Virus record (IMG/VR): IMGVR_UViG_3300042564_000961
Location: 1-32,318 of that record
Strand: one strand, 5' to 3'
Source: a virus
Length of the DNA stretch: 32,318 nt
The notes under the pieces were generated by a model that was not told where the DNA came from, did not search any database, and saw only the letters and a program-made list of their open reading frames with translations. Position 1 is the first letter of the stretch, and the number at the start of each line of letters is the position of its first letter. Shown here piece after piece: positions 1,004 to 12,084 of the stretch. The position numbers and the translations under genes are program-made.

Positions 1004-1749
1004 ATCTGATAAATTTTACCCTCTTGGTCCAATCGTGTTTCAAAATTTACCATGTCATAAATGGCTCGCTTGTAACATTCCGATTTTGATTTTACAATTC
1101 TTAATTCCCGATTTTCAATATTTGCCAAACTATCCCACACCTCTTTTTTTGCCTCCACGCTTGTCGTAATTAAATTAAACTTTTGGGCTATGTCGTACAA
1201 ATGGTCAAGCCCGCCTTGCGTGAATTTGTATTGTGGATTTTTTGAAATCAAATCCGCGTAATCATTTAAAATATCAATTGCCTGCTTTTTTAAAACGTTG
1301 TCTTCGGGGACCGGTAATGGCGGTGTTTCGACGTAAGAATTGTGGACCTTTCCAATCACTTCGCGCTTGTCTTTGTCGCGGTATTTCTTCAACCATTGAC
1401 AAAAGTTTGGCGAATTGAAAAAGACTTGCTTGTCATCGCTTTGATATTCCCCTTGTAATCCGCGTTTTACGGCCTCAATTACCTCGTCTGATGTCAATGT
1501 ACCAAACGACTCTAAATCGTCGCTTATACTAAAGATTTGCGCTTGTTCTTCTGCAACATTTTCGTTTCTTAATCCAAGTTTGATTTTGATTCGGGTCCAA
1601 ATACGAAATGCTAATTCGCTTTTTTCTTTCTTCGTAAGCGTTTTCAACACTTGCCCTTTGCTAAGTTCAATTATTTTCGCTTCGGTTGGGGAAAGATTAG
1701 AGGAAATCGAATGGGTTGTTGTAAGTTCCATCGTCGTGTGATTTATCAA
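1000..1749 (-). CDS. Replication-region protein of unknown function
   Basis: A 249-residue soluble protein encoded directly after the DUF4373-type replication gene. The central segment (about residues 75-125) has a pattern of helices, GEYQ, then FNSPNFCQWLKKYRDKDKRE, which resembles proteins that follow replication initiators in Bacteroidota phages and plasmids; this resemblance is from memory. No Walker A motif is present, so it is not an AAA helicase loader of the DnaC type. The first ATG at 1749 overlaps the upstream gene by 53 bases; an in-frame ATG at 1731 reduces this to 35. A role in assisting initiation or helicase recruitment is inferred from position only. Confidence 0.7.
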   Translation of the reverse strand: MINHTTMELTTTHSISSNLSPTEAKIIELSKGQVLKTLTKKEKSELAFRIWTRIKIKLGLRNENVAEEQAQIFSISDDLESFGTLTSDEVIEAVKRGLQGEYQSDDKQVFFNSPNFCQWLKKYRDKDKREVIGKVHNSYVETPPLPVPEDNVLKKQAIDILNDYADLISKNPQYKFTQGGLDHLYDIAQKFNLITTSVEAKKEVWDSLANIENRELRIVKSKSECYKRAIYDMVNFETRLDQEGKIYQI

Positions 1750-2467
1750 TTGCCGCTTTGGCTTGTTGTAGGTTTATAATATTTTGTTCAAACTTACCAA
1801 TTTTTTTGGTTGTGTCAACACCTATGTTTTTTTTCGGTGCAAATAAACCTTGGTAATTGTTTCCAATCGAATGGTCGATTGCCTCTTTCAATTCGTTGTC
1901 ACTTTTGTCTGACCAATCTTTTATCAATTGCGCTTTCCCGATTTCTGTGTAGGTTGATTTTTTGCTTTTCTTATAATCAAACCATCGTTGAAATAAAAGG
2001 TCGCGTTCCGTAGGAACTGCTACTTGTTCTATTACTATTTTATTTACTTTACTTTCTTTTTCTTTACTTTCCTTTCCTTTCTTTTGTTGAACGGTCGTTG
2101 AACGGTCGTTGGACAATCGTTTATCGGCTGATGCTTTTCCGGCCAATTTACGTTGTTCTTTCATGCGAAAATATGGCTCCAAGTAGACCAACATTTTAGG
2201 GGAAAAAAACTTTTCGTCGTTGTCAATTTCAAACAATTCGTAATTGCATACGGTCACTCGAATCTTTGCCTCTGACACCCCAAACTCGTCGGCTAACAAA
2301 TCCAAGTCTTCCAAAGGATAAACTAAGTCTTGCTGTTCTCTTAATGTCTCTAAAAGCATGAAATAAATGCCGTACCCCTCAACTCCTAATTCTCTGCGTA
2401 ACCGTCTAATTTTACGGTCGTGCCTTGCATTGCAAAAATGCGGGAAATAAAATGCCTCTTTTTCCAT
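1697..2467 (-). CDS. DUF4373-type replication initiation / replisome organiser protein
   Basis: A 256-residue protein. Residues 1-95 match the Lin1244/Lin1753-like N-terminal domain (DUF4373): FPHFCNARHDRKIRRLRREL followed by GVEGYGIYFMLLETLRE, a winged-helix fold seen in phage and plasmid replication initiators. A Lys/Glu/Ser-rich linker (about 120-140) leads to a C-terminal region (about 150-256) with a W-x-x-Y-K-K-S-K-K-S-T-Y motif similar to the C-terminal parts of such proteins. It probably binds the phage origin and recruits host replication enzymes, since no phage polymerase or helicase is encoded. It follows the 61-residue gene by five bases and so lies behind the structured RNA at 2665-2760. 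Confidence 0.8.
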   Translation of the reverse strand: MEKEAFYFPHFCNARHDRKIRRLRRELGVEGYGIYFMLLETLREQQDLVYPLEDLDLLADEFGVSEAKIRVTVCNYELFEIDNDEKFFSPKMLVYLEPYFRMKEQRKLAGKASADKRLSNDRSTTVQQKKGKESKEKESKVNKIVIEQVAVPTERDLLFQRWFDYKKSKKSTYTEIGKAQLIKDWSDKSDNELKEAIDHSIGNNYQGLFAPKKNIGVDTTKKIGKFEQNIINLQQAKAAIDKSHDDGTYNNPFDFL

Positions 2468-2472
2468 TTTTT

Positions 2473-2658
2473 TTAAAATCTAAATTTTAAACTTGGTTCT
2501 TTATTTTCTGGATAATGTCTATATCCTTTTAAATCGTATGTAATATATTGACCCATTTTAAATTCAACTATTATATGGTTTTCTAAATAATCAATTATTC
2601 CATTACCATATCTTTCGTCATAAACTCTGTCACCAATTTTAAATTTTTTCTCTTCCAT
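2473..2658 (-). CDS. Small SH3/Tudor-like basic protein
   Basis: A 61-residue protein starting MEEKKFKIGDRVYDERYG. The pattern GDRVYDERYGNGIIDYLENH followed by IIVEF resembles the small beta-barrel modules of the Tudor/KOW kind (for example the C-terminal domains of UvrD/PcrA-like helicases), where a protein or nucleic acid surface is bound. This is a fold-level resemblance only. It is the first gene after the structured RNA and terminator; the U-rich tract of that terminator ends only a few bases upstream of its ATG, so its expression and that of the replication gene behind it may depend on read-through. Confidence 0.65.
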   Translation of the reverse strand: MEEKKFKIGDRVYDERYGNGIIDYLENHIIVEFKMGQYITYDLKGYRHYPENKEPSLKFRF

Positions 2659-2664
2659 TTTTTT

Positions 2665-2706
2665 AAAATAAAAAAGCCTGAATGCGTAGGAGTGCAGACA
2701 GGCTTT
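2665..2706 (-). terminator. Intrinsic terminator / attenuator upstream of the replication genes
   Basis: In the minus-strand transcript, AAAGCCTG (2706-2699) pairs perfectly with CAGGCTTT (2680-2673), enclosing an 18-nt loop, and is followed by TTTTATTTT. This is a textbook intrinsic terminator. It ends just upstream of the ATG at 2658, so it would prevent expression of the downstream genes unless bypassed. Its large loop contains ACTCCTAC, complementary to the loop of the preceding hairpin. Confidence 0.85.
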
Positions 2707-2760
2707 ATGGTTCTTAAAACCAATTAATCACCGAAAAACTCCTACCCTTTTCGCTGATTA
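2665..2760 (-). ncRNA. Candidate phage small RNA or leader with loop-loop pairing
   Basis: Reading the minus strand, hairpin 1 pairs 2760-2748 with 2737-2725 (13 bp with one mismatch) and closes a 10-nt loop at 2747-2738. A small hairpin follows near 2725-2708 (TGGTT/AACCA), and the terminator hairpin completes it. The loop of hairpin 1 carries GTAGGAGT and the terminator loop carries ACTCCTAC: 8 nt of perfect complementarity that could form a kissing loop. A promoter-like box lies just upstream, placing a start near 2760. No known RNA family is recognised. It may be a free ~95-nt RNA or an attenuating leader for the replication genes. Confidence 0.65.
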
Positions 2761-2765
2761 CGAAA

Positions 2766-2773
2766 CAAATATA
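2766..2773 (-). promoter_or_regulatory. Bacteroidota -7 promoter box TATATTTG
   Basis: TATATTTG on the minus strand is a perfect match to the Bacteroidota -7 consensus TAnnTTTG. It lies directly after the stop of the gene ending at 2778 and about six bases before the base of hairpin 1 of the candidate RNA, a natural spacing for a transcription start. I do not see a clear -33 TTTG at the expected distance, so strength is uncertain. Confidence 0.55.
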
Positions 2774-2777
2774 AAAT

Positions 2778-3047
2778 TTATTCCTGAAATTTCATTAATC
2801 GTTTCATAAAAATTCCCGCGTATTGCGGAAAATCTCTTTCAAATAAACGGGCATAATCTGCCGAATAATTGTTGTTGACTTTGAATTGGTCGTTTCCGCT
2901 TATCATGGTATGATACCGAATGACCTCTAATATTTGCCGCGCTCCAATACGCTTGTAATTTCTACCGATTAGCTGAAACGCTATCTTTCTGAATTCCGTG
3001 TAAATTTGCGGGTTTTCTTCGTTGTATTTTCTGAATGACTTTTTCAT
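2778..3047 (-). CDS. Conserved small phage protein (NNY-YARLF family)
   Basis: An 89-residue protein with the pattern RKYNEENPQIYTEFRKIA, GARQILEVIRYHT and NNNYSADYARLFERDFPQ. I recall the same layout (ENPxxYxxF, IRxHT, NNNYxAxYARLFxxxxPxYxxxF) in small proteins from many unrelated phages, where the function is unknown. It is probably a compact helical DNA- or protein-binding domain acting early. It lies immediately upstream of the promoter box and structured RNA. The start overlaps the end of a short upstream gene by 86 bases. Confidence 0.75.
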   Translation of the reverse strand: MKKSFRKYNEENPQIYTEFRKIAFQLIGRNYKRIGARQILEVIRYHTMISGNDQFKVNNNYSADYARLFERDFPQYAGIFMKRLMKFQE

Positions 3048-8959: not shown

Positions 8960-9381
8960 TTTTGCAAGGTTTGGTTTAATAAATATTCCAATTGATTATC
9001 AAATTTAGGAACATTTTGTTCAATCGCAATTTCTTGGTCACTCCATGGCGATTTTATTTGATTTTTTTGCAATTTTTTTATCTTTCTTTCTTCTAATTCC
9101 GCTATCATACTGCGCTTCATAAAATCAATATCTGATTCACCACACGCATCAATCACAAAACTTACAAAATCTGCGTGTTTTAATTCTGAAAATGGGGTAA
9201 AATTTTCATCTTTTGGATTAGATAAATAAATATCTTTCATTATAAATGTTGTTTCGTCTCCTTGCGATTCAACATCATAAGCCACAAATGCAAATTTTAT
9301 TCTTTTAACGGTATCGGGAAATAATGAATCGTAATTACTTACTTCCGTTTCTAAAATATCCCATTGAAAAATGTAAGCCAT
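8956..9381 (-). CDS. Tail-fibre neighbour, possible fibre-assembly protein
   Basis: A 141-residue acidic protein starting MAYIFQWDILETEVSNYDSL. An N-terminal beta domain (about 1-55, including RIKFAFVAYDVE) resembles small phage proteins that start with MAYxFxW, and a helical C-terminus (about 95-141) follows. It lies directly between the collagen-like fibre and the hydroxylase, 12 bases after the fibre gene, so a fibre chaperone or a structural subunit are both possible. No firm family assignment. Confidence 0.6.
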   Translation of the reverse strand: MAYIFQWDILETEVSNYDSLFPDTVKRIKFAFVAYDVESQGDETTFIMKDIYLSNPKDENFTPFSELKHADFVSFVIDACGESDIDFMKRSMIAELEERKIKKLQKNQIKSPWSDQEIAIEQNVPKFDNQLEYLLNQTLQK

Positions 9382-9393
9382 AATTTTATTTGT

Positions 9394-12084
9394 TTAAAAT
9401 ATTCTGCGACAAGTAATGTATAATGTTCCCCCTTTGTCCGTCAATTGGTAACCCATCGCTAATCGAATTCCTGACGATGCACCTCCGTTTGATTCCGATG
9501 TAACTTGTAACCAATCAAACGATGTACTTCTATTTGCAAAAAATGGCGCATAAGTCCAACCACTTGTTCCCCAACCATAAGTGTCACCGTATGGGCTAAA
9601 TAAGAAAGCCGTTGAAACACCCCAACTTCCGTTGTTTGTTGCAAAATATACACTACAAACATACGTTCCGCCACCTTGCAAATCACCCTGATAAATAGCC
9701 ACTTGGCCGGGGTTTGCCCAACCCGTATTGATATTGTGTGCGCGTGAAACCGTGTGTGTTGAACTTCCACCCGATGGTCCGGTTGGTCCCGTTGCTCCGG
9801 TTGGACCGGTTGGACCGGGGCCACCTGATGGTCCGGTAGGTCCGGGGCTACCCGTTGGACCGGTTGGACCGGTTGCACCGGTGTTACCTCTTGGAATGGT
9901 AAAGTTAAACACGGCCGCCGAACTTGTTCCGCTATTTGTAACCGATGCGTTTGTGCCTGCGTTTCCCGTCGTTGTCGTGCCTGCCGCAACCGTTGCCGCT
10001 GAACCCGTTGGACCGGTTGGTCCCGTCAAACCCGTCGGACCCGTCGGCCCGGTATTTCCTTGGATTCCCTGAATACCTTGTGGACCCGTTGGTCCGGTTG
10101 GTCCGGTTGGTCCGGTTGCACCTTGTGGGATTGTGAAATTAAATACGGCCGCTGATGTTGTACCGCTATTTGTAACACTTGCGCTTGTTCCTGCCGCTCC
10201 GGTTGTTGTTGGACCTGCTGAAACGGTAGCCGCTAAACCTTGTGGACCCGTTGGACCAATAGGACCAATAGGACCCGTATCACCGGTGTCACCCTTTAAA
10301 CCTTGTGGACCGGTTAAACCCGTTGGACCGGTTGGTCCCGTTTCTCCCGTTAATCCGGTTGGACCTTGTGGTCCGGTCGGACCCGTTGGTCCCGTTAAAC
10401 CCTGCGGACCGGTTGGTCCTATTTCTCCCGTATCTCCCTTTATTCCTTGCGGACCTGCGGGGCCGGTTGGACCGGTTAAGCCAATTGGTCCGGTATCTCC
10501 GGTGTCACCTTTAATTCCCTGCGGACCGATAGGGCCTGCCGGACCGGTTAAGCCGATAGGACCGGTATCACCCGTGTCTCCCTTGATTCCTTGTGGGCCG
10601 ATAGGACCTGCCGGACCCGTCTCACCTTGTGGTCCCGTAGGACCCGTCTCCCCTGCAATACCTTGAATTCCTTGTGGACCAATAGGACCCGCGGGACCGG
10701 TTAAGCCAATTGGACCCGTTGGGCCAATGTCACCCGTATCTCCTTTAATACCTTGAATTCCTTGTGGACCGGTTGGTCCCGTTAAACCTTGTGGACCCGT
10801 TGGACCAATGTCACCGGTGTCTCCTTTAATTCCTTGAATTCCTTGTGGACCCGTTGGACCAATTGGACCCGTCGGACCCGTCGGACCGGTTAAACCCGTT
10901 GGACCGATTGGGCCGGTCGGGCCGGTAGGACCCACGGGACCTTCGGAAATTGTAAATGTTTGATTAGTGGACAAATCTTTCGTCTCACCGTTTATTGTAA
11001 TTGTTGTAGTAGAGTTTGCAGGGGTATAGCCCAACGCATCAACAACGCTTTTATTTTTCCATAATCCCGAAACCGTGTCATAAAATAAACCTTGATTTGC
11101 TTGTTTATTAACAATTAAAACATCGTGTAACTCATCTATTTCAAATCCGTTTTGAACCTTAACAAAGATTTCGCCATTGTTTTGATGAACTCGCGTAACA
11201 ATACCAATAAAAACAAGGTGTGCCGGTGCAACCGGTTTGTTTGTTAGGCCATAAATTAAAGCCCCATCGACACCCAACCAAACGGGGTCACCTTGCGTTG
11301 CTGACGATGTATTTAAACCCGACAAAAGACCCTCGGTAATAACCGTTCCTTGACCATTTACGGCCAAGTTTTGCATAATTAATCCAAGTGTTTTGCTTGA
11401 TGTATTTTCGGCCGCGTTTGATGCCTTTACGACAATCATATTGGTTCCGTCTTGCGTTGGGCTTACATAAACCGCTTGTCCCTTTGTAAGTGCCACACCG
11501 GCCTTTACATTGTGACGCAATACGCTTGTCCAAAGTGCGTAATTATCAATCCACTCCGTATTGAAATCCGTTTCGTCAACCTTTACTAAAATCTGACCGG
11601 CTAAACCACCGTCAGGAATTAAACCGCCTTCGCTTAAACTTCCGTCACCTCTTACGACCTCATTTGCCGTACCGGTAGGGTAAGGGTAATATGTTGTGTT
11701 ATCGTAAGAAATTGTCGTTCCGTTTGCCTTTACAAAACCGGTTCCATTAAGGTCGTCTTGCTTTGCCGCTAATGCGTTTTGTAAATCTGTTTGATTGGCA
11801 ATATTTCCGCCAATGCCTCCCCAAATAACTGCCGCCGATGTTGAAACCTCAACGTATTGCGTTCCCGTCCAACGATACAAAAGACTTGTGTCGTTGGTTA
11901 CATAAAACGTAGTTTCATTTCCAACCGTTGGCAATGCGGAAATCGATGCGACCAAAAGGTAATTCGACCCGATTATGTTTCCCGATGTACTGAAAACATT
12001 AACTTCAATTAAATTCGGGGTCGTATTAATTTGAACGACCTGCGAATTGTCAGTTACTAAAATATCAATCGTTTGGTCCGCCAT
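9394..12084 (-). CDS. Collagen-like tail fibre / receptor-binding protein
   Basis: An 896-residue protein. Residues 1-381 form an N-terminal domain that should attach to the virion. Residues 382-618 are about 79 uninterrupted Gly-X-Y triplets (mainly [12 protein letters not shown]). Two more collagen blocks lie at about 652-693 and 730-770, separated by two copies of a ~33-residue non-collagen module ([16 protein letters not shown]). The C-terminal 125 residues ([18 protein letters not shown] to ITCRRIF) are Trp/Tyr-rich and likely the receptor-binding head. The protein should form a trimeric rod. Most prolines are in X position and most Y positions are Thr, Gln, Ile or Lys. Thr-rich GPT repeats are glycosylated in some bacterial collagens such as BclA, so glycosylation is another option. 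Confidence 0.9.
9772..10941 (-). repeat. Collagen-coding repeat array with two duplicated spacer modules
   Basis: Nine-base units with the theme GGTCCGACC/GGACCGGTT repeat through 9772-9893, about 10003-10125 and 10233-10941, giving a local GC-rich island inside AT-rich DNA. Larger units ([29 protein letters not shown] in protein) recur several times. The two intervening modules (about 9893-10003 and 10125-10233) are near copies of each other. Such arrays change length by recombination. Confidence 0.85.

Follow-up and report, generated by a model that had tools for sequence, protein, structure and literature searches.

We asked what lies between the stop codon of one ORF, at 2778, and the ATG of the next, at 2658, on the minus strand of an IMG/VR virus record of 32,318 bases, the whole of which was analysed and is called the window here. 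An initial annotation had proposed that this gap holds an RNA of about 95 nt, running from its own promoter to a terminator, in which the loop of the first hairpin is perfectly complementary to the terminator loop. Both the layout in the window and its relatives bear out such a unit, with ends predicted from the sequence, and the structure, that is the layout, the stems and the loop complementarity, is near certain as a sequence-based prediction (Table 1). The first hairpin, described as 13 bp with one mismatch, consists of 12 bp and a G.G mismatch (2760-2748 paired with 2737-2725; G2754 opposite G2731), and GTAGGAGT in L1 (2745-2738) and ACTCCTAC in L3 (2693-2686) are indeed exact reverse complements. 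The G.G mismatch in P1 (window 2754 and 2731, minus strand) is common to most type-A relatives, defined below.

Table 1. Predicted RNA and neighbouring genes in the window
Feature	Position	Strand	Basis or remark
Box TATATTTG, Bacteroidota-type -7 element	2766..2773	-	sequence
Whole RNA, ~91-95 nt (P1, P2, P3 terminator, U-tract)	2670..2760	-	fold, covariance model, 74 relatives; both ends predicted
P1 5' arm	2748..2760	-	covariation across relatives
L1, 10-nt loop GGGTAGGAGT, pairing part 2745-2738 (GTAGGAGT)	2738..2747	-	complement of L3, covariation
P1 3' arm	2725..2737	-	covariation, as for P1 5' arm
P2, small hairpin TGGTT/AACCA	2708..2722	-	other stems at the same place in relatives
P3, intrinsic terminator hairpin AAAGCCTG..CAGGCTTT, apical TGC/GCA	2673..2706	-	-15.0 kcal/mol, U-tract 2675-2670
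L3, 8-nt terminator loop ACTCCTAC	2686..2693	-	exact complement of 2745-2738; covaries with L1
Upstream ORF, phrog_13625	2778..3047	-	PHROG match; homologue usually ends <50 nt from the RNA region
61-aa ORF between terminator and rep	2473..2658	-	without PHROG or Pfam match
Replication initiator, Lin1244_N domain, phrog_2562	1697..2467	-	a homologue follows the RNA in most loci

The window RNA folds at -32.8 kcal/mol (z = -4.7), a value equalled by 0 of 200 shuffles. A kissing helix lies beyond nearest-neighbour folding, so that this score says nothing on the loop contact, and the case for the contact rests on comparative evidence instead. A descriptor that demanded two stems, loop complementarity of at least 8 nt and a T-run had this site as its sole strong match in the window, with none in 150 dinucleotide shuffles of the 32-kb strand. 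The covariance model scored the window RNA at 101.9 bits, the window sequence itself being part of its training set. No family in Rfam 15 matched the window at its gathering score; the best sub-threshold match reached 30 bits against a cut-off of 48.

We then turned to relatives. In the first scan of IMG/VR with a loop-loop pattern, spacings clustered at the window's value among the matches listed, and a stricter pattern gave 82 IMG/VR loci. A set of loci chosen by the downstream initiator protein alone and without reference to the RNA, showed that the loops change jointly, as matched pairs that we call codes: GTCAGAGT with ACTCTGAC, GTGAGAG with CTCTCAC, GTGGTAG with CTACCAC, and GTCGGAGT with ACTCCGAC. 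Polarity varies as well: in a second type, B, L1 carries the pyrimidine strand and the terminator loop the purine one, opposite to type A. Among 74 distinct type-A RNAs aligned with MAFFT, both sides change in 21 of 30 pairs, a number reached by 0 of 500 shuffles, and every measure of covariation falls sharply when the partner columns are slid by 1-3. This holds for P1, where 10 of the 11 counted pairs change on both sides, and for the apical stem of P3, which also covaries. In the loop helix, seven pairs are Watson-Crick in all 74 RNAs, and three of them carry compensatory changes (AU/GC/CG, GC/AU and GC/UA). Compensatory changes, to which the initial annotation had looked as a check, are thus present in stems and loops alike, and the loop-loop contact that it proposed is conserved. 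P2 is less constant: its place is taken in relatives by GGTT/AACC, GGTA/TACC or other stems, and it was not evident in type B. Exact TAnnTTTG boxes stand mostly 4-6 nt upstream of P1 in the family; in about 40% of type-A members the box departs from this form, as in TATATTGC.

The descriptor demanded loop complementarity, so a circular result had to be guarded against, and a covariance model with unpaired loops was built for this reason. The loci that it searched had been chosen mostly through their flanking proteins; its matches in protein-chosen loci kept at least 7 nt of loop complementarity in 53 of 53 cases, spread over five codes, a result that retains some bias because the model was trained on descriptor hits. 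Together with direct reading of the sequence upstream of Rep, this answers in part the concern that circularity is the source of the signal. Type-A RNAs occur as one copy in records of about 30 kb. Record IMGVR_UViG_3300027969_000114 (L020, L220; 59 kb) has two copies 31 kb apart and is probably two phage genomes joined in assembly. Five other loci (L011, L012, L030, L031 and L036) contain clustered copies of GTAGGAGT/ACTCCTAC that form a repeat outside this RNA class.

The RNAs mostly lie 20-60 nt ahead of replication initiators and other early genes, and the placement just upstream of replication genes noted at the outset holds, in that a replication initiator follows. Its kind varies: Lin1244_N, DnaD-like and DUF6291 initiators all follow the RNA, which rules out a simple tie to one Rep family. 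In the GTGAGAG set, loose clustering of the proteins puts replication initiators downstream at 143 of 185 loci. Other downstream genes encode helicases, primase, HNH endonucleases, an antirepressor and a methyltransferase-like protein. Because the class precedes non-replication genes too, the earlier suggestion of copy control is too narrow as the sole function. Where a contig has a second RNA, it mostly lies ahead of a homing-endonuclease-like gene. Five contigs, L078 (RNA near 9338, minus strand), L162 (RNA at 372), L407, L408 and L455, have RNAs of the same layout with other codes about 20-40 nt before HNH/NUMOD4-like homing endonuclease genes, and most of them carry the usual RNA too. In L310, an HNH endonuclease-like ORF lies directly ahead of rep (2200-2500); no such RNA was found in that interval, nor any type-A match in the whole record. 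Between RNA and rep, other phages have different small ORFs or none.

The design extends to isolated phages of Flavobacterium, Olleya, Tenacibaculum and Cellulophaga, in which the same layout, in unrelated sequence, lies upstream of replication genes. The descriptor found GTGAGACG/CGTCTCAC in Flavobacterium phage tooticki6-1 and relatives, CGGGCAGG/CCTGCCCG in Flavobacterium phage 11b, GTGGTGG/CCACCAC in Olleya phage Harreka_1 and AGCATCCTAC/GTAGGATGCT in Tenacibaculum phage JQ; TGAGAGC/GCTCTCA in elemoA and CTCTCACAA/TTGTGAGAG in Cellulophaga phage phi19:3 were recognised by eye. The Flavobacterium phages tooticki, lillamy, hattifnatt and hemulen (L332, L336, L343, L346), of several genera and with the related hosts LMO6/LMO9, have an identical RNA region. 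No such RNA was seen in four gammaproteobacterial phages with a related initiator, or in Riemerella phage RAP44 and one gut phage.

In IMG/VR, the pattern TATATTTG - GTGAGAG - CTCTCAC matched 74 loci, the same code with its polarity reversed matched at least 120, and a scrambled code matched 1; most of the breadth comes from patterns with fixed codes, in contigs whose hosts are predicted. The GTGAGAG set (n = 194) falls into 18 sequence clusters and has a T-run in 192 of 194 and an ORF start within 80 nt in 188 of 194. Across 4.39 Mb of fetched sequence, the full layout gave 202 distinct matches versus 0 in the reversed sequence, a number that is no estimate of density because much of this sequence was fetched by loop patterns. 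Shuffles, the scrambled-code scan and the reversed sequence together rule out chance complementarity of the loops. Bacterial chromosomes (genome_contigs) gave a single match to the strict GTAGGAG pattern, in an actinobacterial MAG, and hence no prophage relative; the Rep alignment yielded none either. Taken together, hundreds of related phages share the design with differing matched loop pairs, pointing to a widespread RNA switch or self-recognition tag for early genes. The class is shown by comparison to be one of layout, namely promoter box, P1/L1, linker, P3/L3 terminator and early-gene start codon, with L1 and L3 exact complements of 7-10 nt.

Changes of code were seen in individual pairs of loci. 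The 83-nt RNAs of L125 and L143 differ at only four positions, two in L1 and two in L3, and these are compensatory. L123 and L154 are 86-87% identical in their flanks on both sides and 10% identical in their RNAs, with complementary loops in both, which shows at the level of sequence that type A was exchanged for type B between the promoter box and the start codon. These comparisons show a constant layout in which the two loops are replaced together, as a matched code. A tree built from 53 Rep N-termini has 25 changes of code, close to the shuffled mean of 26.9, and identical Rep N-termini accompany up to four codes; by this measure the loop code is nearly uncoupled from Rep phylogeny. Within each locus that has at least two such RNAs the codes differ, where random pairs would share one with probability 0.37 (six loci, one with a doubtful second match, so few pairs). 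The code is not free, because few codes (GTAGGAG and GTGAGAG) dominate. The purine strand almost always begins 5'-GT, and GTGAGAG recurs in unrelated RNAs in either polarity, so that codes seem to be drawn from a restricted set. In L1 of type B (e.g. L122, L154), ATTATA directly after the pairing strand is constant while the pairing strand varies.

This variation also bears on the initial annotation's remark that AGGAG in L1 resembles a Shine-Dalgarno sequence. A ribosome-binding sequence or decoy would suit the prevalence of GTAGGAGT, more frequent in the type-A set than any other code; relatives, however, have GTGAGAG, GTCAGAG, GTGGTAG or a pyrimidine strand in this loop, and type B places its purine strand in the terminator loop. 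Other codes lack AGGAG, and the idea is thereby refuted as a general explanation, leaving it scarcely credible.

What, then, might the RNA do? A terminator hairpin with its U-tract just upstream of a start codon is the general mark of an intrinsic-terminator leader, and since the terminator stands directly before the start codon we argue for control of read-through. Changes restricted to the loops argue for selection on the loop sequence itself to diverge, something that a structural contact within one molecule would not require, and a self-specific contact between RNA copies is favoured for that reason. Together with the prefix folds given below, the position of the terminator and the loop-only changes suggest a negative feedback in which the terminated RNA acts on its own leader; the outcome would resemble that of P4 CI RNA (PMC4825925) or pIP501 RNAIII (PMC4981023), with both partners here in one strand.

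We give close to an even chance to a leader RNA in which L1:L3 pairing tunes termination at P3, while the terminated RNA reports genome number and brings about a code-specific shut-off. Transcription starting at the box would yield an RNA of about 95 nt ending at P3, and L1:L3 pairing would set whether P3 halts the polymerase or allows it to run into the replication initiator. In the nascent RNA, L1 would be able to bind L3 while the 3' arm of P3 is still to be made, which would hold back the terminator; if the L3 of a second copy of this RNA has occupied L1, P3 would form and transcription would stop. The terminated RNA would act as a gauge of phage genome number, silencing the gene only in genomes with the same loop code, and it would probably have a self-specific action in trans as well. 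Among nested folds of growing prefixes, L1:L3 is the best structure at 76-80 nt, before the P3 3' arm, and P1 with P3 wins from 84 nt; L1:L3 could consequently serve as a transient block to P3. We count in favour of loop-tuned termination the exceptionless loop covariation, the matched code switches, the cassette swap, the near independence of code and Rep phylogeny, the recurrence of the layout in unrelated sequence of isolates, the pattern counts set against scrambled and reversed controls, the differing codes within a locus, the prefix folds and the single copy per genome of about 30 kb. Counted against it is that L3 is the loop of the terminator and not an arm, so that L1:L3 and P3 do not compete for the same bases, and modelling suggests that any exclusion of P3 by L1:L3 would be steric at most. 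The RNA common to tooticki, lillamy, hattifnatt and hemulen also speaks against strict diversification, as does the dominance of a few codes against a free code.

In a rod (rough helix) model, type A with P2 formed is beyond the reach of its linker, and isolates with long linkers are within reach. Geometry as proof of a dimer was abandoned: the conflict holds in type A and some type B, not in the long-linker isolates. The linkers of 11b, Harreka and tooticki are indeed long enough for an intramolecular kiss, and a 5' end near the base of P1 with a 3' end at the terminator would make a discrete molecule, as expected of a stand-alone structured noncoding RNA in which the kiss shapes a compact RNA for a host or phage protein and the next gene is a mere neighbour. 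We consider this rather doubtful, since it leaves unexplained both the nearness to the next start codon and the loop changes amid otherwise identical RNA, and since unrelated clusters share no sequence outside the loops although a protein partner would be expected to need some.

The short linkers of type A, in turn, suit a two-fold dimer better than a monomer. If two copies pair by reciprocal L1:L3 kisses, the RNA might act chiefly in trans to distinguish self from non-self, giving superinfection immunity or incompatibility of phages with the same code and making attenuation secondary. Rapid matched code switching and the different codes inside one contig would fit, and conserved intermolecular contacts in ROOL, GOLLD and OLE provide a precedent (PMC12286853). 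Against this stand the dominance of two codes and the sharing of one code by phages of several genera on related hosts, and we regard a primary role of this kind as unlikely.

A broader reading, which we put forward tentatively and expect to be wrong more often than right, takes the loops as a widespread code by which Bacteroidota phages recognise themselves. Every early transcription unit would bear an RNA tag that pairs through its two loops with nothing but further copies of that RNA; a phage, or a homing endonuclease gene inside it, could in this way sense and limit its own dosage while ignoring or excluding others; the code would be switched by matched double substitutions or by swapping a cassette of about 95 nt.

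The window encodes Terminase_3 and Terminase_3C, and the nearest terminases are those of Nonlabens phages (60% identity); its TerL, together with the Bacteroidota-type box, suggests that the host is a flavobacterium. The window also encodes an 896-aa protein with collagen-like repeats (9394-12084, minus strand), probably a tail fibre. The RNA occurs ahead of early genes in phages of Flavobacteria and probably other Bacteroidota, where phage gene control is little known. Being defined by layout and not by sequence, such a class is missed by libraries of sequence-profile families, and a search of the open-access literature found no description of such an RNA. Matched, fast-changing loops make the function of a phage noncoding RNA directly testable by loop swaps, which are feasible because isolates on cultured hosts (11b, tooticki, lillamy, Harreka_1, JQ and phi19:3) carry the RNA.

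Several known RNAs invite comparison. The pRNA of phi29 has two mutually complementary loops that covary between phages, as here, and serves the packaging ATPase motor. A phi29-type pRNA is ruled out by the terminase encoded in the window (Terminase_3, Terminase_3C); unlike pRNA, this RNA sits in the replication module. Plasmid antisense copy control of the ColE1, R1 or pIP501 kind relies on an inhibitor RNA from the strand opposite its target; here L1 and L3 are on one strand in one promoter-terminator unit, which does not match that arrangement. In the Inc18 plasmid pIP501, the antisense transcript RNAIII attenuates repR (PMC4981023), and by analogy RNA pairing here would sense copy number by tuning how often transcription ends in the leader ahead of a replication initiator; in contrast to pIP501, the two loops share one strand, and no antisense promoter was found.

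HK022 putL, an RNA of about 70 nt with two stem-loops (PMC9378689), resembles this RNA in position and layout, the only features compared: both are structured nascent RNAs by early phage promoters, ahead of early genes. That place, right after the promoter, would suit put-like processive antitermination, in which the nascent RNA alters the polymerase so that neither the terminator of this RNA nor later ones in the early operon would stop it. Yet put, as portrayed there, is antiterminating, with two stem-loops and no terminator described as part of it; this RNA has a built-in one with a U-tract (192 of 194) besides its complementary loops, and it lacks conserved sequence while its code changes. 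We therefore hold put-like action to be very improbable.

GOLLD, ROOL and OLE have conserved intermolecular contacts including kissing loops, and GOLLD and ROOL are, similarly, phage-borne noncoding RNAs with covarying kissing loops (PMC12286853); those two, however, are hundreds of nt long, near tRNA islands and in Rfam, whereas this RNA is of about 95 nt, before early genes and without an Rfam match. A further likeness is with the CI RNA of satellite phage P4 in seqA-seqC immunity, a short RNA from the leader of replication genes that pairs with leader segments and controls premature termination (PMC4825925). Both would be short leader RNAs of replication genes with complementary segments, and the terminator and its position fit this analogy. 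The P4 CI RNA is cut out of a longer transcript, and its pairing partners are flanking sites (PMC4825925); here, by contrast, the promoter, both loops and the terminator form one unit of about 95 nt, and the partners are the terminator loop and the loop of the 5' hairpin. What is new is the RNA class; should the attenuation model hold, the RNA would work by a variant of a known principle, the control of termination by RNA.
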